From NCBI GenBank assembly GCA_002898315.1, contig BEHV01000002.1:156145-220144 (forward strand): 64,000 bases of DNA. Reading direction: 5' to 3'. The position numbers and the translations under genes are program-made. A model generated the notes under the pieces. The model made no database searches and was not told where the DNA came from. It saw nothing but the letters and a program-made list of their open reading frames with translations. Shown here in pieces: positions 24,184 through 38,410 of the stretch; positions within the stretch are counted from its first letter, which is position 1, and every line of letters starts with the position of its first letter. This stretch comes from a bacterium HR19 (GTDB lineage: Bacteria; Calescibacteriota; Calescibacteriia; Calescibacteriales; Calescibacteriaceae).

Positions 24184-25242
24184 ATGCAAGAAATCAAAGG
24201 AAGATATATAAGAGTAAAACTCCCAGATAACCTCAAAAGCGTTGAATGGAGAAAATCAGATAGCGAAACAAGAGTCCAAGTATTCCTCAAACTCTTCAAC
24301 AAAGAAAGAGAAAAAAATCAGGTCTTCGTTTTTGCGGATGAGGGAATTTTTATCGCAAATTCAAATGTAAAATCTGACATCAGAACAAACAAAGCAGAAA
24401 TCGGAGATACTAGTTTTGAGACAAACGAATTAGCTCTTTTCATCTTTGAAAGTTCAGATGTTTTCTTGATATTCGGAGAGAACCAAGCAAACTATGTCAG
24501 CTCAATCTCTATAACGGTAGAGAGCGGGATATCTGTAAACCTTTTTGAAATCTGGAAGACGCCCCCGCAATCTTCTTCATTTAACATAACAAAAATTTAT
24601 CTCAAACCGTCAAGTTCTCTTAAACTGCTGTTTTTAGAAAACACAGAAGAATCATCCCTCGTGGTTCAGAAAAAAAAGTTTTTTATCTCAGAAAGCTCTG
24701 ATATGTACGGAGGAAATATATGGAGGGGATTAGGAAAAACCTTCGTTTCAGAGGAGGTATATCTTGATGGAGATGAGAGTTCTTTGAGGGATTTTCACCT
24801 GTGCTTGGGAGAAGGTAAGAAAAAACTTGAAGTAAATTACAAAGTTTTTCACAGAGGGAAAAGGACAAAAAGTTTTGTATCTTCTAAAATTATTTTGAAA
24901 GATAGCTCAGAGATTGCTTTCCTTGAAGATGCAGAGATAGAAAATTCAGCTCTTGATTCCGACTCTTATGTAGAGGGCAAGTCGCTGATTCTTTCGGAAA
25001 AAGCCAAAAACTTCCTTATTCCGTCAATGAATATAGGGGTAAATATAGTCAAGGCGAAGCACTCTGCTTCTTGTAGTAGAGTGGGGGAAAAAGAACTCTT
25101 CTATCTTATGTCAAGAGGTCTTGATAGAGAAACTGCCGAAAAACTTATAATATATGGTTTTATATCAGAGATACTTAATGAGTTCCCTTTGAAACGTTTT
25201 ATTCCCAAACTCCCTGATTTCCCCCAAGACCTTTTGCTTTGA
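24184..25242 (+). CDS. SufD/SufB-family Fe-S assembly scaffold-like protein
   Basis: A 352-residue protein with the SufBD beta-helix core. The diagnostic C-terminal block runs HSASCSRVGEKELFYLMSRG, then LDRETAEKLIIYGFISEIL (about 295-340). SufD works with SufB and the SufC ATPase in Fe-S cluster assembly. SufB, SufC and SufS are not nearby. It is shorter than usual SufD (about 420), mainly in the N-terminal region. The 3' end overlaps the convergent diguanylate cyclase gene by 44 bases. It is probably cotranscribed with trxA. Confidence 0.78.
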   Translation: MQEIKGRYIRVKLPDNLKSVEWRKSDSETRVQVFLKLFNKEREKNQVFVFADEGIFIANSNVKSDIRTNKAEIGDTSFETNELALFIFESSDVFLIFGENQANYVSSISITVESGISVNLFEIWKTPPQSSSFNITKIYLKPSSSLKLLFLENTEESSLVVQKKKFFISESSDMYGGNIWRGLGKTFVSEEVYLDGDESSLRDFHLCLGEGKKKLEVNYKVFHRGKRTKSFVSSKIILKDSSEIAFLEDAEIENSALDSDSYVEGKSLILSEKAKNFLIPSMNIGVNIVKAKHSASCSRVGEKELFYLMSRGLDRETAEKLIIYGFISEILNEFPLKRFIPKLPDFPQDLLL

Positions 25243-26560
25243 GCAATCTCTTATCTGCAACTTTTATTATCTCCTCGTAGTTTGAATCCGCTTCTTTTAC
25301 TGCACATAAGCCCCAGCTCACAGTGGGGCTTTCCCCAAGAATAGCTTTGAGTTCTTGATATAAACTGAATTTTCCAGTTATCCTCCTTATGACAGATATA
25401 CTTTCCTCTTTCTCTATTTCATCAAGAAGAAGAACGAACTCATCTCCTCCAAATCTTGCAGGTATATCGTATCCTCTTACATTCTGCTTCAAAATAAGAG
25501 CGAATTTTTTCAAAATCTCATCTCCTACTGTATGACCGTACTTATCATTGATTGACTTGAATCTATCTATGTCAAATATAACTACAACATAGTTTTTCTG
25601 AGTTCTCCTGTATTTTGCAAAGTTTTGTTCTAAGCGAGCCATAAAATATCTTCTGTTGTATATTGCGGTAAGAGGGTCTGTGATAGCTTTTATTTTTAGC
25701 TCTTCTTCGGTCTCTATGCGTTTGAGTATAGCAGATGTTAATTTTGAGATAAGATAGAGAAGATTCTTCTTGTTTGCGTCAAGTTCTCCTCTCACTACTA
25801 TAAATCCATACTTTTCTCCGTTAGATAATGGAAATGAAGTGTATTCTTTCTCTTCTTCTATCATTCCCTTTGCTATACTATCTATGATTTTGCTTAAAAA
25901 CTCCTCTCCTTTGATTATCTTTATTTTTTCTTTTTTGTCGGTTTCTGTTATTACTTCTTGTTCAGAACTCTTCTCAAATATAGCTATGCCTATTTCATTT
26001 TGGGGTAGTATATACTCCAAAAAATTTCCAACTTCTCTGAAAAGTTTATATCTATCTGTTTCCGCAATTGAGTATCTTATAAAGTTTGTGAGGTAAATGA
26101 TAAATTTTTCATGCTTATCAGCAGAAACTAATTTTTCTTTGATTCCTTTTTTGGTTTTCAGTATTGTATAGAATATTTCTTCTAACTCTTTTGATAATTC
26201 AGGAATACTGATTTTCTCTAATTTTTCGTCCGGGCTTTTGGGGGAAGATGCTTTTTCTTCCTTTCCTTCTGGATTTTCTAATATATTTTTTATGTATTTC
26301 AGCTCTTCAAAGAAATTCAATATCTTTGATATGAACTCTCTGTAAATTATAAAGCTCAAAATAAAGAGCGAAAAAGCAATTAAAATGAAAGAGATTATAT
26401 CTATCCTCCCAAAGATGTGGAGCAAAAGGAGAATAATGAAAATAGTTGCAGGAATAATAAAAAAGCTCTTTGGAAGAATGAAAAATATTCTCATTTTCGC
26501 CAGGGCGAGCGAGGCAAAAGAAAATAAAACAAAAAGCAGTATATACAAAGTGATTTCCAT
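25199..26560 (-). CDS. Membrane diguanylate cyclase (GGDEF)
   Basis: A 453-residue protein. The first ~85 residues hold three hydrophobic spans, then a helical linker and a GAF-like sensory region (~150-280). The C-terminal GGDEF domain has an intact active site ARFGGDEF (GGDEF at 371-375) and, five residues before it, RGYD, the RxxD inhibitory site. It should make c-di-GMP from GTP and be product-inhibited. No EAL domain is present. The gene is alone, converging on sufD with overlapping ends and diverging from trpF. Confidence 0.93.
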   Translation of the reverse strand: MEITLYILLFVLFSFASLALAKMRIFFILPKSFFIIPATIFIILLLLHIFGRIDIISFILIAFSLFILSFIIYREFISKILNFFEELKYIKNILENPEGKEEKASSPKSPDEKLEKISIPELSKELEEIFYTILKTKKGIKEKLVSADKHEKFIIYLTNFIRYSIAETDRYKLFREVGNFLEYILPQNEIGIAIFEKSSEQEVITETDKKEKIKIIKGEEFLSKIIDSIAKGMIEEEKEYTSFPLSNGEKYGFIVVRGELDANKKNLLYLISKLTSAILKRIETEEELKIKAITDPLTAIYNRRYFMARLEQNFAKYRRTQKNYVVVIFDIDRFKSINDKYGHTVGDEILKKFALILKQNVRGYDIPARFGGDEFVLLLDEIEKEESISVIRRITGKFSLYQELKAILGESPTVSWGLCAVKEADSNYEEIIKVADKRLLKAKGLGGNQGVWE

Positions 26561-28061: not shown

Positions 28062-28148
28062 GGGTAGGTGGCGGAATGGTAGACGCAGGGGACTTAAAAT
28101 CCCCTGGGGGTGTAAACCCCCGTGCGGGTTCAAGTCCCGCCCTACCCA
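28062..28148 (+). tRNA. tRNA-Leu (anticodon TAA)
   Basis: The acceptor GGGTAGG (28062-28068) pairs with CCTACCC (28141-28147), with discriminator A at 28148. Anticodon stem GGGGA/TCCCC holds loop CTTAAAA, giving anticodon TAA. A long variable arm (GGGGGTGTAAACCCCC) and T-arm GCGGG/CCCGC make it class II leucine. CCA is not encoded. The next gene starts 10 bases later. Confidence 0.95.
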
Positions 28149-28158
28149 CATATTATTT

Positions 28159-29289
28159 GTGTTTTGTACAACCTCTTTCTCTAACATCAAAAGCGAAGAA
28201 AAAGCATGCAAGAGCATCATAGATGAAGTTATAAGTAAACTTGAACTACCGAGAAAAAAAGATATGATGCTCATAATTTTCCTCAGCTCAAAATACAAAG
28301 TTGAAAAAGTGATGGATTTTTTTTCAGATATAGATAATATCGGTGTCTCTGTTGGTGGAAATATAACAGATGATGGTGAATTTGAAGGAGAAGAGTCAGG
28401 AATATCTGTTCTCGCAATAGATAAAAGGTATATCCGTTGTCAGAGCTTCTCTTTTTCCGTCCCACAAATGGGATTGAGGGAAGTAGGTAGAAAAATCGCA
28501 GAAAGATTTGCAACAGACATACCATCATCTCTAATTCTTTTTCCAACCCCTTTTTATAACATAGATGAAATTCTGAACGGAATAAGAGATATAAAAAGTG
28601 ATAACCTTTTTGTAACCGGAGGAGTAGCGAGTTCTTATGGAGATTCTCCTATCTTTACATTTGAAAATGGCTCGATAGGAAGCTATGCGATAAGTGGAGT
28701 GTTTTTGGAAGGTGTGGAGGGAAGCGGAAGAGTTGCTCAGAGCTGTAAAGTTGTGAGCAGTAAGTTTGTGGTTACATCATCAGAAACCAATGTCATAGAG
28801 GAGATAGATGGAGAGTTAGCTTCTGATGTGTTGAACTATGTTGCTTCTGAAGTAATTACCGAAGAACCCGATATAGGAAAATTACCATGGTTCGTCGGAG
28901 TTGAAATTGACAGCAGATTGGAGCTGTTCAGATTCTATCCTATTTTAGATGTCAAAAACGGGTATATATATGTTGGTGGTGAAGTGGAGGTAGGAAAAAA
29001 CATAGTGTTTGCGGTTATGTCTCGGAAATATGCAGATGAGATTTCAAAAATGGAGTTTTCATCCATCAGTCCTAATTTATCTTACGATTTTTGCATGATT
29101 TTCAACTGCCTTGCGAGAGGAAAAAAGTTTTTCGGAAGAAAAAATCACGATATATCAATAGTAAAAAAGAGATTGAAGTGTTCTATAGGTGGGTTTTTTT
29201 CAAACGGTGAAATAATAACTTTGGGTTCGCCTTTTCTTTTCACATACTCAGCAGTTCTCGCAAATTTCAGAAAAGTTTTCATATCGTAA
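28159..29289 (+). CDS. FIST-domain sensory protein
   Basis: A 376-residue protein with the FIST plan. The N-terminal domain (~1-200) has the VxVGGxxTDDGEFEG turn and LFPTPFYNIDEILNGI. The C-terminal FIST_C part (~210-370) ends with FNCLARGKKFFGRKNHDI and GFFSNGEIITLG, the usual C-terminal signature. FIST domains are thought to bind small ligands such as amino acids, and often sit beside chemoreceptors, kinases or GGDEF proteins. The start is GTG, 10 bases after tRNA-Leu and without a Shine-Dalgarno; no earlier start exists outside the tRNA. The next two genes encode receptor-like membrane proteins. Confidence 0.85.
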   Translation: MFCTTSFSNIKSEEKACKSIIDEVISKLELPRKKDMMLIIFLSSKYKVEKVMDFFSDIDNIGVSVGGNITDDGEFEGEESGISVLAIDKRYIRCQSFSFSVPQMGLREVGRKIAERFATDIPSSLILFPTPFYNIDEILNGIRDIKSDNLFVTGGVASSYGDSPIFTFENGSIGSYAISGVFLEGVEGSGRVAQSCKVVSSKFVVTSSETNVIEEIDGELASDVLNYVASEVITEEPDIGKLPWFVGVEIDSRLELFRFYPILDVKNGYIYVGGEVEVGKNIVFAVMSRKYADEISKMEFSSISPNLSYDFCMIFNCLARGKKFFGRKNHDISIVKKRLKCSIGGFFSNGEIITLGSPFLFTYSAVLANFRKVFIS

Positions 29290-29352
29290 TTGAGCTATAT
29301 GGTTTTTATTGTAAAATTCGGAAGAAATATTTAAACTAATTTTTATATACTT

Positions 29353-31092
29353 ATGCTTTGGCTCTATGCTATAAGGTTTGTGCTCAAATTGCTTGCTGTC
29401 TCCTTTGTTGATTACTCTAAAATCACGTCTCCTGAATTTTCCTTGCCTTTCCTTTTCATTTCCTCTTTTGAAATATTATTTTCACGCAGATTATATTCTC
29501 GCAGAGAAAACATATATCTTATCGCAATAGCTTCTTTTCTCATCTATCTTATCACAATATACTCCAAAGCTCATCTTTATCTCCTTTTGCTTTTCTTATT
29601 CATTGATATAAGCTCGGGAATGGCTATTTTTTTGAGATGGGTGGTATTTCTACCTCTGATATTTACGGTTGCGATTTTCTCTCTCAATATCCCTGTTTTA
29701 TTTGTGTCTCGCTCGGTGAGTCCAGATAAAGACCTACCCGAAAATTTCAAGGTGATCAAAGGAAGCATGATAGACAGATACACGGGGAAAAAGGGGAGTG
29801 TAAATTTTTTGGGTGGTTTCCTTGTTGGTAATTATCTTTTTTCCACAACATCTCCAGAAGGAGACGAGTTCTTTGTTTTTCTGAGAACAATTGATAGCGA
29901 GAAAGAAATACTCTTTTTTTCTTTTTTGATAATTTTGAGTTTGATTTTCGTACTACTTATTTTGCAAACTGAAAGAAAAGATTTTTCCGCAGATTCATAC
30001 TCAAATGGTAAAGCCAAAACAGATAGAAATATATCTGATGAAAAGGGGGTGCCAAGCGAAGATAAAACCGAACTCTTTGCTCTATACAAAAAATATTTAG
30101 AAGAAGCCATATCAAATCTGAAAGTAAACATTGAAGAAGATAAAGCTTACCTATCATCAATCACCAAAACCTTAGACGATTTCAAGTTTAAGGTCTCATC
30201 AATACTTCTTGAAAGATCATCTGAAACAGATGTAGGGTCATTGATTAAGAATTTCAAATCATCAATATATGATAAAGTTCAGCAAATATCTAAAAAGATT
30301 GATGAGTTTGAAAGAGTCATTGATATTTCTGCATTTGAGAGAATTCAGCTCTCATCTTATGATTTTTATCTCTCTCTTATTACACTTAAAGAGAGTATAA
30401 GCTCACTCCGTGAAATTTTGCTCCATAAGTTCAGAAATATTGAGTATGTTTTCCACGAGATTTACTCCCCTCTTGGCGGTATAGAGAATGATATTGGTAA
30501 AATAAGATTTTTCAACATACAGAAAATTTTTGATTTTTCCGACATTGAAGAGGTATTTCAGGATTTTTGTGAAATGATTGTAAGGTTCAAATCAAGTATA
30601 TCTGCAATTCTTGACAGCATAAAAATTCTCGCTTTCAACTCTTTCGTGATAGCATATAAAATAAAGGACAAGGTGGAAAGCTTTGAAGTCCTTTCATCAG
30701 CGATAGAGATGATAATGGTAAATGTAGAGAATTTTTACTCTGAAGTGCAGGAGCTATGGAATGTGGTAGAGGAAAATCTGGCAAACCTTAGGTTTGAAAA
30801 CCCAGGTATTTCACTTGACGAGCTTGAAAAACAGATTGCCGAAGCGAAGAAAATATTAGACGAAGGAATGCAGGGAATAAGGTCTTTCGTAAGTTCTCTT
30901 GTCCAGTTTACCAATACATTTTTGAACAATTTAAGTTCGGGTATAGAAGATATGACAGAAGGTACCAATTTCTTCTCCAAAGTTCATATCAAATTTGAAC
31001 TCCTGAAAGATAGTTTTGATTTGATAAAAGGAGATATTTCTCTGCTAGAAGATTTTGCAAGTAAAAAAAGTGAGGGGGTGGAAGAAAAATGA
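29353..31092 (+). CDS. Membrane coiled-coil protein resembling a degenerate chemoreceptor (first of pair)
   Basis: A 579-residue protein. Residues ~1-110 hold four or five membrane spans, a soluble loop follows (~125-175), then another span (~185-205) and a long cytoplasmic coiled coil (~240-579). Near 425-460 the segment ILAFNSFVIAYK followed by FEVLSSAIEMI matches the spacing and hydrophobic pattern of the receptor hairpin tip and its flank (LALNAAIEAAR, then FAVVADEIR), but key tip residues are changed. No HAMP domain is seen. The start is ATG without Shine-Dalgarno. The stop overlaps the next ATG (ATGA). The assignment to the chemoreceptor superfamily is inferred by eye. Confidence 0.6.
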   Translation: MLWLYAIRFVLKLLAVSFVDYSKITSPEFSLPFLFISSFEILFSRRLYSRRENIYLIAIASFLIYLITIYSKAHLYLLLLFLFIDISSGMAIFLRWVVFLPLIFTVAIFSLNIPVLFVSRSVSPDKDLPENFKVIKGSMIDRYTGKKGSVNFLGGFLVGNYLFSTTSPEGDEFFVFLRTIDSEKEILFFSFLIILSLIFVLLILQTERKDFSADSYSNGKAKTDRNISDEKGVPSEDKTELFALYKKYLEEAISNLKVNIEEDKAYLSSITKTLDDFKFKVSSILLERSSETDVGSLIKNFKSSIYDKVQQISKKIDEFERVIDISAFERIQLSSYDFYLSLITLKESISSLREILLHKFRNIEYVFHEIYSPLGGIENDIGKIRFFNIQKIFDFSDIEEVFQDFCEMIVRFKSSISAILDSIKILAFNSFVIAYKIKDKVESFEVLSSAIEMIMVNVENFYSEVQELWNVVEENLANLRFENPGISLDELEKQIAEAKKILDEGMQGIRSFVSSLVQFTNTFLNNLSSGIEDMTEGTNFFSKVHIKFELLKDSFDLIKGDISLLEDFASKKSEGVEEK

Positions 31093-32711
31093 AATTTGAT
31101 TCCGCAAAAATAAAGCCAGCTCACAGAGATATATTCAAGGTTATTTTGCTTATTGCAATTTTTATTCTTCTCAATATATCCTTCGGTAAAGGTATTTTTG
31201 ATTTTCCCGATCTTTATATTTTGCCTTTTGGATTCATATTGGCACTCTTTATTAGAAAAGAAAGAAAATTATTCTTTTTCATCTTCTTCACGACATTTCT
31301 TCTTCCATATTTTGGTATAAGAACTGCTTTCTCATCGGTTCTATATCATGAGCTATCAGCTATATTGATTCTCTCTCTTTCATCACTCTTTATTTCACTT
31401 GTCTTATCATTTCTCACCGTAAAATTTCTGCAAGATAAAGGAGAAATTTTTTATAAGATAAGTGAGGTTGAAGACAAAAAGTTAGAAAAAGAGAAAGAGG
31501 TGGAAGTGTATGTGAGAGATGATGAAGATCAGAAAAGAGTAGTAGAAGAATTGAAAGATGAGATAAGATTTTTTGAAACAGAGATAGAGAGCGAGGTAAG
31601 GAAGAAATTTCCCGAAATTAATTCGGCTGAAGAAGAGCTGGAAAAGAGCATAGAAAGAGAGAAGAAAAGAAGAGAGGAGAGCATAGCATCTTTGTATGAG
31701 CTGAAAGAGAAGATTTCCTACTTCAAAAAGAGAGTGAGCAAAAGCTACTCTGAACTCTCTTCATTCATAAAAGATGTCAAAGATATTTATACATATACTG
31801 TTTCGTTTATCAGAAAAGTTGAGAATTTGAAAGAACTTTTAGATGCTAAAATTCCCGCTAAAACAACAATTTCCCTTATGTCTGACAAAAAAATTTTGGA
31901 ATTGAAAGATATCTTTGAATCTTTCAGCAATTCCTTCAGAGAGCAAGTTGAGAGAATCCTGAAGTTTAATGTGGAAGATATGATGGAAAAAATATTCATT
32001 TTGCGGACATTGATATACAACTTGAAAGAGCTTTTAAAAAAGCTTGATAGAATAAACTACTTTTCTTATGCTGTTTCACTTAAAATATCACAGATCGCAG
32101 GCAGTTCAGGAGATAGTGCTGTGAGAAGAACTCTTCTTTCCATAGCCCAAGATATAGATAACCTTTCATTCAAGTCATTAATTATATTCAGCGAAGCAGA
32201 GGAAAACATTGAAAAACTTGAAAAGAAAACAGGTGTCGTTGTTGAAAGCTTTGATGAAAAAAGCGAAAACCTGAACCAGATGAGATCTTCTATTAAAAAT
32301 GCCATGAACAAGCTGAATGTCATTCTCAAAGACAGAATTCAAAACTTTACTCAGGAAGTGAGTGGTTTTATGAACATATCAGAGATAGAAGAAATCAACA
32401 GATTTATTTCGAAGAATCAAGAATATATACAGAATATTTTGGAGTTTGGTCAAGATATAGAGAAAAAATTTCTCGTTTTCATAGACATGCTTGAAAGAAT
32501 AGAATCTGATATAGATGAACTCATAGATATATTTATACTATATGAAAATCAGTTTGAGGAAATCATAAGCAGAGAGAAGAAAATTCTTGAAGAGTTGTCA
32601 GAAATAGAGTTTGGCTGGAAGAAACTTTATTTATCTGATTTCAAGAGCATTTCAGAGCTAAGGAATATAAAAAATATAATATCAGAATTTGAAAAAGAAT
32701 TTATGTCTTAA
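31089..32711 (+). CDS. Membrane coiled-coil protein resembling a degenerate chemoreceptor (second of pair)
   Basis: A 540-residue partner of the preceding protein, with the same plan: about four N-terminal spans (~18-115), a highly charged Lys/Glu coiled coil (~125-220) and a second coiled coil to the C-terminus. The stretch INYFSYAVSLKISQIAGSS, then TLLSIAQDIDNLS (about 320-360), again parallels the receptor tip region with the consensus eroded. It begins by ATGA overlap with its neighbour, and GGGGG six to ten bases before the ATG can serve as ribosome-binding site. The pair probably forms a heteromeric membrane signalling scaffold with the FIST protein. Confidence 0.58.
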   Translation: MKFDSAKIKPAHRDIFKVILLIAIFILLNISFGKGIFDFPDLYILPFGFILALFIRKERKLFFFIFFTTFLLPYFGIRTAFSSVLYHELSAILILSLSSLFISLVLSFLTVKFLQDKGEIFYKISEVEDKKLEKEKEVEVYVRDDEDQKRVVEELKDEIRFFETEIESEVRKKFPEINSAEEELEKSIEREKKRREESIASLYELKEKISYFKKRVSKSYSELSSFIKDVKDIYTYTVSFIRKVENLKELLDAKIPAKTTISLMSDKKILELKDIFESFSNSFREQVERILKFNVEDMMEKIFILRTLIYNLKELLKKLDRINYFSYAVSLKISQIAGSSGDSAVRRTLLSIAQDIDNLSFKSLIIFSEAEENIEKLEKKTGVVVESFDEKSENLNQMRSSIKNAMNKLNVILKDRIQNFTQEVSGFMNISEIEEINRFISKNQEYIQNILEFGQDIEKKFLVFIDMLERIESDIDELIDIFILYENQFEEIISREKKILEELSEIEFGWKKLYLSDFKSISELRNIKNIISEFEKEFMS

Positions 32712-32800: not shown

Positions 32801-33301
32801 ATGAATTTGGAAAGCATACTTTTTTTCGTCTTTGCGAGTGCAAGCATAATCTCTTCTGTTCTGGCTATTTCAAGAAGGCAACCTATTTTTGGTGTTATGT
32901 ATCTTTTGGTTCTCGGTTTATCTGTTGCCGGGCTCTTCGCAGTAAAAAAAGCGTTCTTCCTCTCCTTGATTCAGATAATAATATACGTCGGAGCAGTGCT
33001 TGTCCTCTTCGTATTTGTCATAGCTATGATGAACCTCTCAAAAGAAGAACTTATATTCGGAAAGATCAGGAGATCAAGATTTTTCTTCCTTATTCCCTTG
33101 ATGCTTACTTTCATACTTATACTATCGGTCGTAATATCTGAAAGTACGCATAACATACAGAGGTTTCAGTTCTTCACAGCAAAAGATGTTTCACTTGCTC
33201 TTTATAAAGACCTTATTTTCCATTTTGAATACCTTTCTGTTTTTTTATTATCAGCAATAGTAATAACTGTTTTCATAGGTATGAGAGGAAAAAAGCTGTG
33301 A
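32801..33301 (+). CDS. nuoJ: NADH-quinone oxidoreductase subunit J
   Basis: A 166-residue membrane protein with five spans. PIFGVMYLLVLGLSVAGLF and IQIIIYVGAVLVLFVFVIAMM are the conserved NuoJ core; the second includes the pi-bulge helix of TM3. It is the first gene of the nuoJKLMN cluster; nuoA-I are absent upstream, where a receptor-like gene ends 89 bases before. CATAAT lies 10 bases before the ATG, and no Shine-Dalgarno is visible. Confidence 0.93.
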   Translation: MNLESILFFVFASASIISSVLAISRRQPIFGVMYLLVLGLSVAGLFAVKKAFFLSLIQIIIYVGAVLVLFVFVIAMMNLSKEELIFGKIRRSRFFFLIPLMLTFILILSVVISESTHNIQRFQFFTAKDVSLALYKDLIFHFEYLSVFLLSAIVITVFIGMRGKKL

Positions 33302-33365
33302 GAGATGAAATGGAATATGCTGAAAGCAAGAAAATTTTTTAAATAGAGGATATATGGTATAAGAT

Positions 33366-33677
33366 ATGGTGGGAGCAGAAATAACTCCTTTTCACTTTAT
33401 CACGCTTGGCTTAATTCTTTTTTTCATAGGTATATGCGGGATTATTTTGAGAAGGAATATAATCTTTGTTTTCATATCTCTTGAAGTAGCTACGAATGGG
33501 GTTTTCCTCATATTTTTTGGTGCGAGTTTGAAGGTAGGGTACCTCTCGCAAGCTCTTATACTTGTTTTTATGGCTATCGCTGCTGTTGAGGTTGCTGTTG
33601 GACTTGCTTTGGCTATCGCTATCTTCAGAACTTCAAAAACGGTTAATGTAGATGAAGTATCTCAACTTAAAGGTTAA
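33366..33677 (+). CDS. nuoK: NADH-quinone oxidoreductase subunit K
   Basis: A 103-residue, three-span protein of normal NuoK length. Conserved residues include the Glu of SLEVATNGVFL in TM2 and the Glu of AAVEVAVGLALAIAIF in TM3, both needed for proton translocation. AGAGGA lies about 15 bases before the ATG. It is the second gene of the cluster. Confidence 0.94.
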   Translation: MVGAEITPFHFITLGLILFFIGICGIILRRNIIFVFISLEVATNGVFLIFFGASLKVGYLSQALILVFMAIAAVEVAVGLALAIAIFRTSKTVNVDEVSQLKG

Positions 33678-33701
33678 TAAAAATGAGGAGGTGAGCAGGT
33701 T

Positions 33702-35531
33702 ATGGAAAGCTTATCTGCTATACTTGTAGTATTTTTGCCTCTTGCGGGAACACTTATAAATCTTCTCCTACTTTCTTACGAAATTCTTACGAAAAAAGAA
33801 GATGAACACCTCAACCCCATCAAAATCATCTCAGGAATAGTATCCTGCCTTGCGGTCGCAGTACCTTTCTTGCTCTCCCTCTATATCTTCGGAAAAGAAA
33901 CTATAAGAATTGAATTTTTCAACTGGATTCCTCTTGGTGGATATAAAATAACATTTTCAGCACTTTTTGATAATCTTTCAAAAGTATCGCTCCTTTACAT
34001 AACAGGAGTTTCATCACTGATACATATATACTCGGTAGGTTATATGTCTCACGACAGGGGCTTTATAAGATACTTTATGCTCCTCAATCTTTTCGTTTTC
34101 TTCATGATTCAAATCGTTGTCTCTGAAAACCTTGTCCAGATCTTTTTAGGGTGGGAAGGTGTTGGATTCTGCTCATATGCACTTATAGGATTTTGGTATT
34201 CTGGGTATGAGAACGCAAGAGCCGGTTTCAAAGCATTCATAGTAAACAGAGTGGGGGACTTTGGTTTCTTGGTCGGAATTGCCCTCTTTCTGATATACAC
34301 GGGGGGAGTAGATTACTCACTTGTGAAGAATCTGCCTTCTGATAAGGTTTTTCTTGTTGCTTTAGCTCTCTCTATGGGGGCGATGGGTAAAAGCGCTCAG
34401 GGACCGTTCTGGCTGTGGCTCCCGGATGCTATGAGAGGTCCTACTCCTGTTTCTGCTCTTATACACGCCGCTACGATGGTGACTGCTGGTGTATATATGG
34501 TAGTGAGGTTGAAAGACCTGTTCTCGTTCCCGTCAGGTGCTTCCGAGTTTGTGTTCTGGGTGGGAGTTATTACATCAATACTTATGGGGTTTTTCGGAAT
34601 CTTTGAAAGAGATATAAAAAGAATTCTTGCTTTCTCAACTTTGTCTCAACTCGGGCTTATGTTCGCAGGTGCGGGAACTTCTTTCAAATATACCGGAATG
34701 TTTCATGTATTTGAACACAGCTTCTTCAAGGCTTCACTCTTCCTTATATCTGGAATACTTATGCACGAATTTGAAAACGAAACAGATATTTATAAACTCA
34801 AAGAGAAAAAACCACTTGAAAAAGGTATGACTCTCTCTGCTCTCGGTTTTCTCATAGGAGCCCTCGCTATGAGCGGTGTTTTCCCGCTATCTGGATACTG
34901 GTCAAAAGAATCTATAATTCAAGCGGTCTCACACGATTTCGGAACTACTGGCTCAATACTCATGCTCATCGCAAGCTTTGTCACTCCACTTTATATGTTC
35001 AGAGCATACTTTGTTGTGTTTGGAAATCAGAAATTCAAAATTTCTTTCTCACCATCGCACGAAGGTGGATACCTTATGTTTGTACCTGTTCTTGTTCTGG
35101 TTATCCTCAGCGTTATCGGGGGCGTATTTGATGTCGGGCACTGGCTCGGAAAAGAATACGGATACCAAGAACATATACACGGAGGAGTTTCACCGGTTGT
35201 CGTGCATATTACTGTTTTTCTTGCTGTTTTCATCTCATATATTATATGGGGCAGAGGGAAAGAAGTTCCCGAAAGCGGAGTAGGAAAAATTCTCTGGAGG
35301 AAGCTTTATCTTAACGAAATTGAAGAATACTCGTTCATAGGCGGAGCCGTCGCACTTATGAAACTCATGTACTCCTTCGCAGAAAGAATAATTATAGAGG
35401 GTTTTTATCTTTTTCTATCTGCTCTGGCAAGAGTTGTTGGTTATTTGATCGCTTCCGCTCACGGAGGGGAACCGGTAAGAATATTATTTCTGATTATCCT
35501 TGGAATAACCTTTGTGCTTTTTATTGTATAG
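33702..35531 (+). CDS. nuoL: NADH-quinone oxidoreductase subunit L
   Basis: A 609-residue antiporter-like subunit of normal length. The conserved region includes LFLGWEGVGFCSYALIGFWY (key Glu of TM5), then GPFWLWLPDAMRGPTPVSALIHAATMVTAG split over TM7-8. The C-terminal ~80 residues form the lateral helix that spans NuoM and NuoN. A strong GAGGAGGTG lies about ten bases upstream of the ATG. The stop is TAG. Confidence 0.96.
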   Translation: MESLSAILVVFLPLAGTLINLLLLSYEILTKKEDEHLNPIKIISGIVSCLAVAVPFLLSLYIFGKETIRIEFFNWIPLGGYKITFSALFDNLSKVSLLYITGVSSLIHIYSVGYMSHDRGFIRYFMLLNLFVFFMIQIVVSENLVQIFLGWEGVGFCSYALIGFWYSGYENARAGFKAFIVNRVGDFGFLVGIALFLIYTGGVDYSLVKNLPSDKVFLVALALSMGAMGKSAQGPFWLWLPDAMRGPTPVSALIHAATMVTAGVYMVVRLKDLFSFPSGASEFVFWVGVITSILMGFFGIFERDIKRILAFSTLSQLGLMFAGAGTSFKYTGMFHVFEHSFFKASLFLISGILMHEFENETDIYKLKEKKPLEKGMTLSALGFLIGALAMSGVFPLSGYWSKESIIQAVSHDFGTTGSILMLIASFVTPLYMFRAYFVVFGNQKFKISFSPSHEGGYLMFVPVLVLVILSVIGGVFDVGHWLGKEYGYQEHIHGGVSPVVVHITVFLAVFISYIIWGRGKEVPESGVGKILWRKLYLNEIEEYSFIGGAVALMKLMYSFAERIIIEGFYLFLSALARVVGYLIASAHGGEPVRILFLIILGITFVLFIV

Positions 35532-35588
35532 CTTATGACCTGGTTTTATAAAGTATGTGTTGAAAATTGTGGGGAGGAAAATTAGAGT

Positions 35589-37040
35589 ATGGATGCGGTA
35601 AAGATGACTTTGATTTTTCCTTACCTTGGTTTTTTCCTCTCGCTTTTTATAAGGTCAGTATATATCGGGTTTTTTTTCTCCCTTGCGACTTTGATCTCCT
35701 CTCTTTTTATAAATGTAGGTTATTCTGATGAGATACTTATAGCGGAGAAAATAGGTTTTTCAATTTCGCTATATGTTGATGGCTTGAATATTTTGCTGAT
35801 ATGGCTGACAACAGGGCTTTTTTTTCTTGTTTTTCTCTATGCGATAGTTGAAAAGAGAGAAAGAAAAGATGAATACACGTTTTTGTTTTTACTTCTTGAA
35901 TCACTTCTCATACCTTCTTTCATGACAAAAAATGTTCTCGTATTTTACTTTTTCTTTGACGCCACTTTAATCCCGATGTTCTTCATAATAGGGATATGGG
36001 GGACTGGGAGAAAAGTTTATTCTGCTTACAAGTTTTTACTTTTCACATTCTTCGGAAGTGTTCTCTTTCTTGTTTCAATAATATACCTTGGAATTGAGTT
36101 TTTTTCTTCTGAGGGGAGATTATCTTTTGAACTTGAAGATCTGATAAAGGTTGCTGGTCAGCTTGATTTTCAAACCAAAGCTCTTCTTTTTCTTGGGTTT
36201 TTCCTGGCTTTTGCGGTAAAAATTCCTCTGATGCCTGTTCATGTGTGGCTTCCTGACGCTCACACAGAAGCACCAACAGGTGGTAGTGTGATACTTGCAG
36301 GAATTTTGCTGAAACTCGGCTCTTACGGATTTTTGAGATTTGCTCTTCCACTCTTTCCTGATGTCGTAAAAGAATACTGGCAAATCATAGCGGTAATATC
36401 TCTTGCAGGTATAATTTTAGGTGCTGTTTTAGCGTTATCTCAGGAGGATATGAAGCGACTCATAGCTTACTCCTCGGTATCGCATATGGGGTACATTACT
36501 CTTGGTTCCGTTGCTTTTTCAGGAGACAAGATAACATATGAGGGCTTACAGGGGGCTGTTTTGCAGATGGTAAATCACGGTATAGCAACAGGAGCTCTCT
36601 TTTTCATCGTGGGAATGATATACGAAAGAACTCATACGAGAATGATAAGAGATTACAGCGGAATTGCGAGAAAAGTGCCAATATTTACTTTCTTCTTCTT
36701 CATCTTCGCTTTATCATCTATCGGATTCCCTTCAACAGGTGGATTTATAGGAGAGCTTCTTGTGATATTTTCTGCTATGAGGTCAAACATAATTTTCGGG
36801 GTGCTCGTAGCTGCGGGAGCAATATTTTCTGCTGGATACCTCCTTTACCTTATTCTGCGAGTGTTTTTCGGGGCTGAAAAGAGCGATATAAATAACCATA
36901 TAAAAGATACAAGTTTTGTGGAGTTTTTAACTCTTGTTCCGCTTGCGATCTTTGTGTTCATCATAGGAATTTTTCCCGGATACTTTATGAAAATTATAGA
37001 CGGAGGTGTTGAGTTTGTATGGAAACATCTTTTACAATAA
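35589..37040 (+). CDS. nuoM: NADH-quinone oxidoreductase subunit M
   Basis: A 483-residue antiporter-like subunit. Conserved blocks are FFFDATLIPMFFIIGIWG (the usual Glu of this helix is Asp here), PLMPVHVWLPDAHTEAPTGG and LIAYSSVSHMGY. GGGGAGGA lies 14-20 bases before the ATG. The 3' end overlaps nuoN by 22 bases. The Glu-to-Asp change at the TM5 proton site is conservative but unusual. Confidence 0.95.
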   Translation: MDAVKMTLIFPYLGFFLSLFIRSVYIGFFFSLATLISSLFINVGYSDEILIAEKIGFSISLYVDGLNILLIWLTTGLFFLVFLYAIVEKRERKDEYTFLFLLLESLLIPSFMTKNVLVFYFFFDATLIPMFFIIGIWGTGRKVYSAYKFLLFTFFGSVLFLVSIIYLGIEFFSSEGRLSFELEDLIKVAGQLDFQTKALLFLGFFLAFAVKIPLMPVHVWLPDAHTEAPTGGSVILAGILLKLGSYGFLRFALPLFPDVVKEYWQIIAVISLAGIILGAVLALSQEDMKRLIAYSSVSHMGYITLGSVAFSGDKITYEGLQGAVLQMVNHGIATGALFFIVGMIYERTHTRMIRDYSGIARKVPIFTFFFFIFALSSIGFPSTGGFIGELLVIFSAMRSNIIFGVLVAAGAIFSAGYLLYLILRVFFGAEKSDINNHIKDTSFVEFLTLVPLAIFVFIIGIFPGYFMKIIDGGVEFVWKHLLQ

Positions 37041-38410
37041 GAGATTTGATAGAGGATTGGGGAGCCTTCGTTCTCTCCCTGATTCTGGGTAGCTTGGGAC
37101 TTATATTGGGTAGGTTGTTGAAGAAGAACTTAGTTTCTATGCTTTTTAACCTTTTTGCTCTGCTAATCCTTCTTATCTTTTCTATACTTTATAGCGGAGA
37201 TGGGAATGAGGTATTTGGGATTTTTGAGTTTGATAGATTTTTCTTTAACTCTTGTTTTTGGCTTTCTGTTTTTGGGATAATAACTCTTTTCGTATCGTTT
37301 CAGGAGGTATCGTCAAAAGGTGAGGTTTTTCCTGAAAACTTCTTTTTTGTTCTTCTTTCCTCGCTGGGTGCGATTTTGATGACAAGTTCAAAAGATTTTC
37401 TCTCACTTTTTATCTCAAAAGAGCTGATGTCTTTCAATATATATGCGATGATATACTTTATCAGGGATAGGTATGGAGTAGAGTCGGCTTTCAAGTATTT
37501 TATATCAAGCGCTCTGCTATCTTTGTTTTATCTTCTTGGATTTTCCTTCTTTATCATATCAAACGAAACGATTTTCATATCAAATCCAAAGACAATTCTT
37601 GGAATTTTAGGAGTTTATCTTGTTCTGTTTGACCTTTTTTTCAAATCTGGTTCTGCTCCCTTTCATTTTTGGGTTCCTGATGTGTATCAGGGGGCTCCTT
37701 CTTCCACTGTTGTATTTGCCGGTTCGGTTGTGAAGTTTGCCTCTTTTCTCGCCATAATGCGCATCTTTGACTTTACAGGTCAAAACTACCAACACCTTTT
37801 AGAGATAATCGTTGTTTTATCTGTTATCATAGGTTCTTTTGGGGGACTTGTTCAGAAGGAGCTGAAAAGGCTTCTTGCGTACTCATCAATAGCCCACTCA
37901 GGTTTTATCTCTCTTTTGCTTTTCGGAACGGGGAACAAAGATTTTAAGGAGTTTCTGCTATTTTATCTTGCGACTTATGGGATTTCATTTGCAGGTGCTT
38001 TTTCTGTAATCTCACTTTTCAAAAACACTCTTTTATATCTTGAAGATATTCGTGGGTTCTCTTCTTCTCACAGATTTTTCTCTCTTCTCCTATCTGTTTT
38101 TCTTCTCACATTTACGGGACTACCTCTTCTTTCAGGTTTCCCATCAAAATACTTTGCGTTCTTCACCGCTTTATCATCTAAAGAATTTATACCTGTCATA
38201 ATCTCGGCAATAGGGAGCTTAATATCACTATACTTTTACTTTATCCCTCTTGTGAGAACCTTTATGGAAAGCGCGGAAAATAAAATTTATTTCAACATCA
38301 ATACTTTTATAGGACTGATTCTGATGATTTTAGCTTTCTTATCTTTTGTTTTCGGAGTGTATCCCGATTTATTCTTTATTATGATTCAAAAAATTCCTTT
38401 ATCTTCTTGA
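37019..38410 (+). CDS. nuoN: NADH-quinone oxidoreductase subunit N
   Basis: A 463-residue antiporter-like subunit. LFISKELMSFNIYAMIYF has the conserved TM5 Glu, and PFHFWVPDVYQGAPSSTVVF and LKRLLAYSSIAHSGF follow. It is the last nuo gene; its end overlaps the convergent uracil-DNA glycosylase gene by 32 bases. Without NuoE/F/G, or even NuoA-D, H and I, nearby, the peripheral arm must be encoded elsewhere or be of another type. Confidence 0.94.
   Translation: METSFTIRDLIEDWGAFVLSLILGSLGLILGRLLKKNLVSMLFNLFALLILLIFSILYSGDGNEVFGIFEFDRFFFNSCFWLSVFGIITLFVSFQEVSSKGEVFPENFFFVLLSSLGAILMTSSKDFLSLFISKELMSFNIYAMIYFIRDRYGVESAFKYFISSALLSLFYLLGFSFFIISNETIFISNPKTILGILGVYLVLFDLFFKSGSAPFHFWVPDVYQGAPSSTVVFAGSVVKFASFLAIMRIFDFTGQNYQHLLEIIVVLSVIIGSFGGLVQKELKRLLAYSSIAHSGFISLLLFGTGNKDFKEFLLFYLATYGISFAGAFSVISLFKNTLLYLEDIRGFSSSHRFFSLLLSVFLLTFTGLPLLSGFPSKYFAFFTALSSKEFIPVIISAIGSLISLYFYFIPLVRTFMESAENKIYFNINTFIGLILMILAFLSFVFGVYPDLFFIMIQKIPLSS

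Follow-up and report, generated by a model that had tools for sequence, protein, structure and literature searches.

Downstream of a tRNA-Leu gene in bacterium HR19, a gene for a FIST protein is followed by two large co-directional genes, here called X and Y, and the question is whether the three belong to one sensory system. An earlier note on the window (the whole analysed stretch of 64,000 nucleotides, contig BEHV01000002.1) had read them as a ligand sensor next to a couple of decayed membrane chemoreceptors. The tip of the chemoreceptor hairpin is among the most invariant sequences of bacterial signalling, because CheA and CheW must be held there. A lineage that combines normal receptors with a selected derivative, in which a different tip has been fixed together with a constant partner, would amount to a natural experiment on the re-targeting of this interface. 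The X-Y pair, hosted by the hot-spring bacterial phylum Calescibacterota, would also bear on what a chemoreceptor hairpin can do without the kinase.

The coordinates confirmed the order of the genes and the ATGA at which X and Y overlap (Table 1). The upstream gene indeed encodes a FIST protein, with Pfam matches to FIST N (E 3.6e-18) and FIST_C (E 3.9e-9).

Table 1. Features of the locus (positions in the window)
Feature	Position	Strand	Description
tRNA-Leu (TAA)	28062..28149	+	Outside the X-Y system
FIST protein	28159..29289	+	FIST N + FIST_C, 376 aa, GTG start; neighbour, not conserved partner
X	29353..31092	+	579 aa; N-terminal hydrophobic spans, cytoplasmic helical hairpin with MCP-derived tip (predicted)
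X residues 362-383	30436..30501	+	Invariant E..F.EI.SPLGG.EN motif; predicted helix break
X residues 412-460	30586..30732	+	Chemoreceptor hairpin tip, CheA/CheW-interface residues replaced; aligned to Tsr 364-412
Y	31089..32711	+	540 aa; 4 hydrophobic spans at the N-terminus, then long helical arms in the cytoplasm (predicted)
Y residues 321-365	32049..32183	+	Conservation peak around predicted helix break

The X-Y pair and its neighbours in Calescibacterota

We compared five Calescibacterota (Calescamantes) genomes of one family (G000-G004, G000 being that of the window); the next genomes are related at the domain level only. Since the five are 82-86% complete, absences among them are soft. 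X and Y were found side by side in all five, with a 4-nt overlap at the junction in four genomes and an 8-nt gap in the fifth. Their surroundings, assigned by eye from translations, differed among the four lineages. In the window genome and its sister species G002 (86%-identical), nuo genes, FIST and a GGDEF gene lie next to the pair. Mre-type genes (mreB/mreC-like) and cofactor genes take this place in Ca. Calescibacterium nevadense (G001), bamA-like and mscS-like genes in G003, and acyl-CoA dehydrogenase and glycoside hydrolase genes in G004. As these neighbourhoods are unrelated, the conserved unit is X-Y alone. We rejected the downstream nuo operon as a functional partner, since it is present there only in the clade of G000 and G002. 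Within the window, the nuoJ, K, L, M, N-like genes (32801-38410) begin about 90 bases past the stop of Y, and the GGDEF gene (25199-26560, minus strand) is separated from FIST by about 1.6 kb and has the opposite orientation.

FIST adjoins the pair in two of the five genomes, G000 and G002, which form one clade; that is, the FIST-X-Y triplet is a local arrangement, and FIST is an accidental neighbour outside the X-Y system. The triplet, whose conservation in relatives the earlier note had itself made the touchstone of its proposal, occurs in these two genomes only. That all three proteins form one sensory module, with FIST delivering the ligand signal, is thus very improbable: FIST lies 63 bases upstream of X on the same strand, with a similar placement in the sister species, but FIST and the pair are on separate contigs in two other lineages. 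There FIST stands among unrelated genes, namely TolB/OmpA-like and GGDEF genes in G001 and GMC oxidoreductase and FliL-like genes in G004, and none was found in G003 (84% complete), where the pair exists nonetheless. A narrower form, in which FIST-X-Y is a lineage-specific operon of the two sister species, may hold. Like the known FIST sensor proteins (PF08495/PF10442), the protein upstream of X is a full FIST N/C protein, but its position next to X-Y is not conserved, and no kinase is fused or adjacent to it. In G001 (L092 5893-7827, minus strand), the gene beside FIST encodes a small GGDEF-like protein and has the same orientation, which hints at a link from FIST to c-di-GMP.

The X orthologues are 25-86% identical to the X of the window (n=5). 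Between G000 and G002, at 83-86% amino-acid identity, X and Y had omega values of 0.145 and 0.154, respectively; for nuoJ and nuoL the values were 0.06-0.08. Values of about 0.15 indicate purifying selection, so that X and Y are constrained genes and not remnants. To call the couple decayed was therefore misleading, all the more as the tip of X carries a new invariant consensus (see below). Outside Calescibacterota we found no full-length relative of X-Y; the contig scan for X relied on short peptide patterns, which distant relatives would escape. A search of a literature library returned no account of the pair. X and Y were also considered as duplicates of one another, which we rejected at an hhalign probability of 23%.

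Chemoreceptor ancestry and the altered tip of X

X has no match to PF00015 (MCPsignal), and no HAMP match is listed in Pfam for X or Y, as the earlier note had foreseen for HAMP. We then asked what the receptor-tip-like stretch of X, ILAFNSFVIAYK, represents. A profile built from the five orthologues found its best match among 177,635 PDB sequences in the MCP of T. maritima (2ch7, E 4.2e-6), aligned over the tip. With a score matrix derived from 24 MCP tips of the same lineage, the same location was the best site in all five orthologues, and these were among the six best-scoring of 311 ORFs, one true MCP set aside; the score of X was reached by one of 2000 shuffles of its sequence. Alignment with hhalign against the MCPs of the lineage gave 90.9% for a 44-column stretch with the tip at its centre, versus 27.8% for the reversed MCP alignment. 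In 386 genomes, the X profile matched, beyond the five X genes, only five proteins at E <= 1e-5; these belong to the 381 other genomes, and all have canonical MCP tips. The likeness is thus homology and not chance, and X is, as judged by these profiles, a descendant of the chemoreceptor hairpin.

Residue by residue, the tip combines kept and replaced positions, given here in Tsr numbering. Kept in the five orthologues are N381, L378 and hydrophobic residues at 377, 380, 384, 399 and 403, with A386 and F396 each present in four of five, and position 388 stays basic (Arg to invariant Lys). Replaced throughout are E385 (I/L/R), G393 (V/A), R404 (E/K/Y) and E402 (invariant Ala); among 26 MCP tips of the same genomes, positions 385, 388, 390, 393, 395 and 402 do not vary. 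G390 has become K/R and G395 S/A, each with Gly in one orthologue, and two further positions have new invariant residues (A382 to Ser, A389 to Ile). Since the overall identity of these proteins is about 26%, their new set of invariant residues represents re-tuning and not erosion. In E. coli receptors, trimer contacts and CheA/CheW determinants are located at the hairpin tip (PMC4692393). The earlier note was right that X lacks an intact receptor tip, and the substitutions lead us to infer that this tip does not bind CheA/CheW. With its kinase-contact residues exchanged for a new conserved set, X may be a receptor that was rebuilt to work with another partner.

Conservation in X is highest in the block E..F.EI.SPLGG.EN (residues 364-379), where the AlphaFold model (pLDDT 46) predicts a helix break. 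By eye, its HEI..SPLGG resembles the H-box of histidine kinases. We rejected this reading, since one lineage (L017) has Tyr in place of the His and neither HisKA nor HATPase is among the families listed. A reading of the GG as a glycine hinge was likewise discarded, as the distance between the GG and the tip Asn is not constant across the aligned orthologues. Compared to MCPs (PF00015; T. maritima 2ch7), X shares the membrane input, the cytoplasmic helical arms and a tip that aligns around the N381 equivalent. It differs by its missing domain matches and replaced interface, by a constant partner gene and by the extra SPLGG break; no canonical methylation motif was found in X, but the same search also finds none in about half of the lineage's own MCPs.

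Y and the predicted architecture of the pair

Conservation of Y peaks at residues 321-365 (invariant R, S, K, Q, S, R, L, I, QD, D, FK), and its AlphaFold model (pLDDT 61) has a short helix break at 340-342, inside this peak. The receptor tip read into Y by the earlier note (SYAVSLKISQIAG) failed to rise above coil background in each of the tests, though conservation peaks there. PDB profile search, PSSM and hhalign of Y against MCPs, X and a further receptor family, Z, all stayed at or below the background of reversed sequences or coils, and the PF00015 match of Y (12.3 bits, cut-off 34.6) lies outside its own tip. We therefore rejected Y as a recognisable MCP relative, as no test separates it from coiled-coil background; Y may be either a diverged receptor or an unrelated partner. 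That is, profile comparison to MCPs, suggested for both proteins, was positive for X and not for Y.

Hydropathy analysis gave about 5-6 N-terminal hydrophobic spans for X and 4 for Y; the hydrophobic N-termini described earlier are present in both. In X, a loop at about residues 118-182 precedes the last span (184-204) and is, from its charge, probably extracytoplasmic. The long coiled coils of the earlier description were recovered in both proteins as long helical arms with a periodicity of about 3.5 residues, weaker in the N-arm of X. In general architecture, Y is thus similar to X as far as spans and arms can be predicted. Since the AlphaFold models are poor, fold searches were uninformative, and the hairpin and any heterodimer are putative structures. 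The X model retrieved mixed helical proteins, among them the soluble T. maritima receptor 3g6b at Z 6.5, and the Y model retrieved designed bundles, BAR domains, TBK1 and pore-forming proteins; none of these hits stood out from helical background. Matches of X-Y to ZorA, MCE and Baculo_PEP were far under the cut-offs and were dismissed as coil noise.

Long paired coiled coils, together with the lack of an enzymatic domain in X or Y among the Pfam families listed, would also fit a structural membrane scaffold for shape, polarity, division or envelope that re-uses the MCP hairpin without ligand sensing. The pair lies near mreB/mreC-like genes in G001, but this neighbourhood is not conserved in the other genomes, and X has retained tip conservation as receptors do. 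We consider such a scaffold unlikely.

A candidate CheA-uncoupled receptor-like heteromer

Our best reading of X-Y is a phylum-specific receptor-like heteromer uncoupled from CheA, with a putative function in signalling. From the pairing of the genes and their overlap, it is reasonable to infer that the two proteins form a heteromeric, CheA-free membrane complex. To the fuller proposal, a phylum-specific, two-subunit signalling scaffold of the inner membrane, in which X is the chemoreceptor-derived, HAMP-less subunit, Y its obligate partner and the effector something other than CheA/CheW, we give an even chance. X would contribute a multi-span membrane input and a cytoplasmic helical hairpin, with the CheA/CheW interface of its tip exchanged for a new conserved surface. 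Y, of the same architecture and probably produced via translational coupling, would join X in a mixed helical bundle. A change in membrane state or a small ligand could then shift this bundle, and the two conserved tips could serve as the docking site of an effector that is not the standard CheA/CheW core unit.

All five genomes carry canonical MCPs and CheA/CheW-type proteins, and flagellar and che genes have been reported for the phylum (PMC4791363). X-Y could therefore still enter arrays via contacts invisible in sequence. If the pair were an accessory of ordinary arrays, dimers of X or X-Y heteromers would mix with MCPs as kinase-uncoupled spacers or tuning subunits, and the kept N381, L378, hydrophobic 377/380/384, basic 388 and, in four of five orthologues, F396 are consistent with this. 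However, E385, E402, R404 and G393 are replaced in every X, while they are invariant or nearly so in the MCPs of the same genomes, and neither the SPLGG break nor the unequal arms resemble an MCP bundle. No che gene lies near X-Y, and neither X nor Y has a methylation-type motif in any genome, although the regular expression used also misses about half of the true MCPs of the lineage. Taken together, we regard an array accessory as rather improbable. Beyond the CheA-uncoupled heteromer that we prefer, X-Y might constitute a novel type of transmembrane receptor, organised as an obligate heteromer, with its chemoreceptor hairpin rebuilt for a non-CheA effector and fixed phylum-wide alongside normal chemotaxis; this is possible, but we hold it tentatively and with some doubt.

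A second off-consensus receptor is encoded once in each of the five genomes. This family, Z, has about 712 aa (L094 4865-7003, plus strand, on G000:C8; orthologues L095, L096, L097 and L098), and E385 of its tip is V, I or A. Z shares with X an MCP-derived hairpin, and hhalign of the two gave 91.8% over 140 columns (11.9% for the reversed alignment). Unlike X, it is clearly an MCP (hhalign 99.4% against MCPs), is encoded by a single gene and has the classic layout of two spans, a probable extracytoplasmic sensor and a HAMP-like stretch. By these alignments, Z stands between MCPs and X; it is a further conserved receptor of non-canonical type, and its gene is not linked to X-Y.
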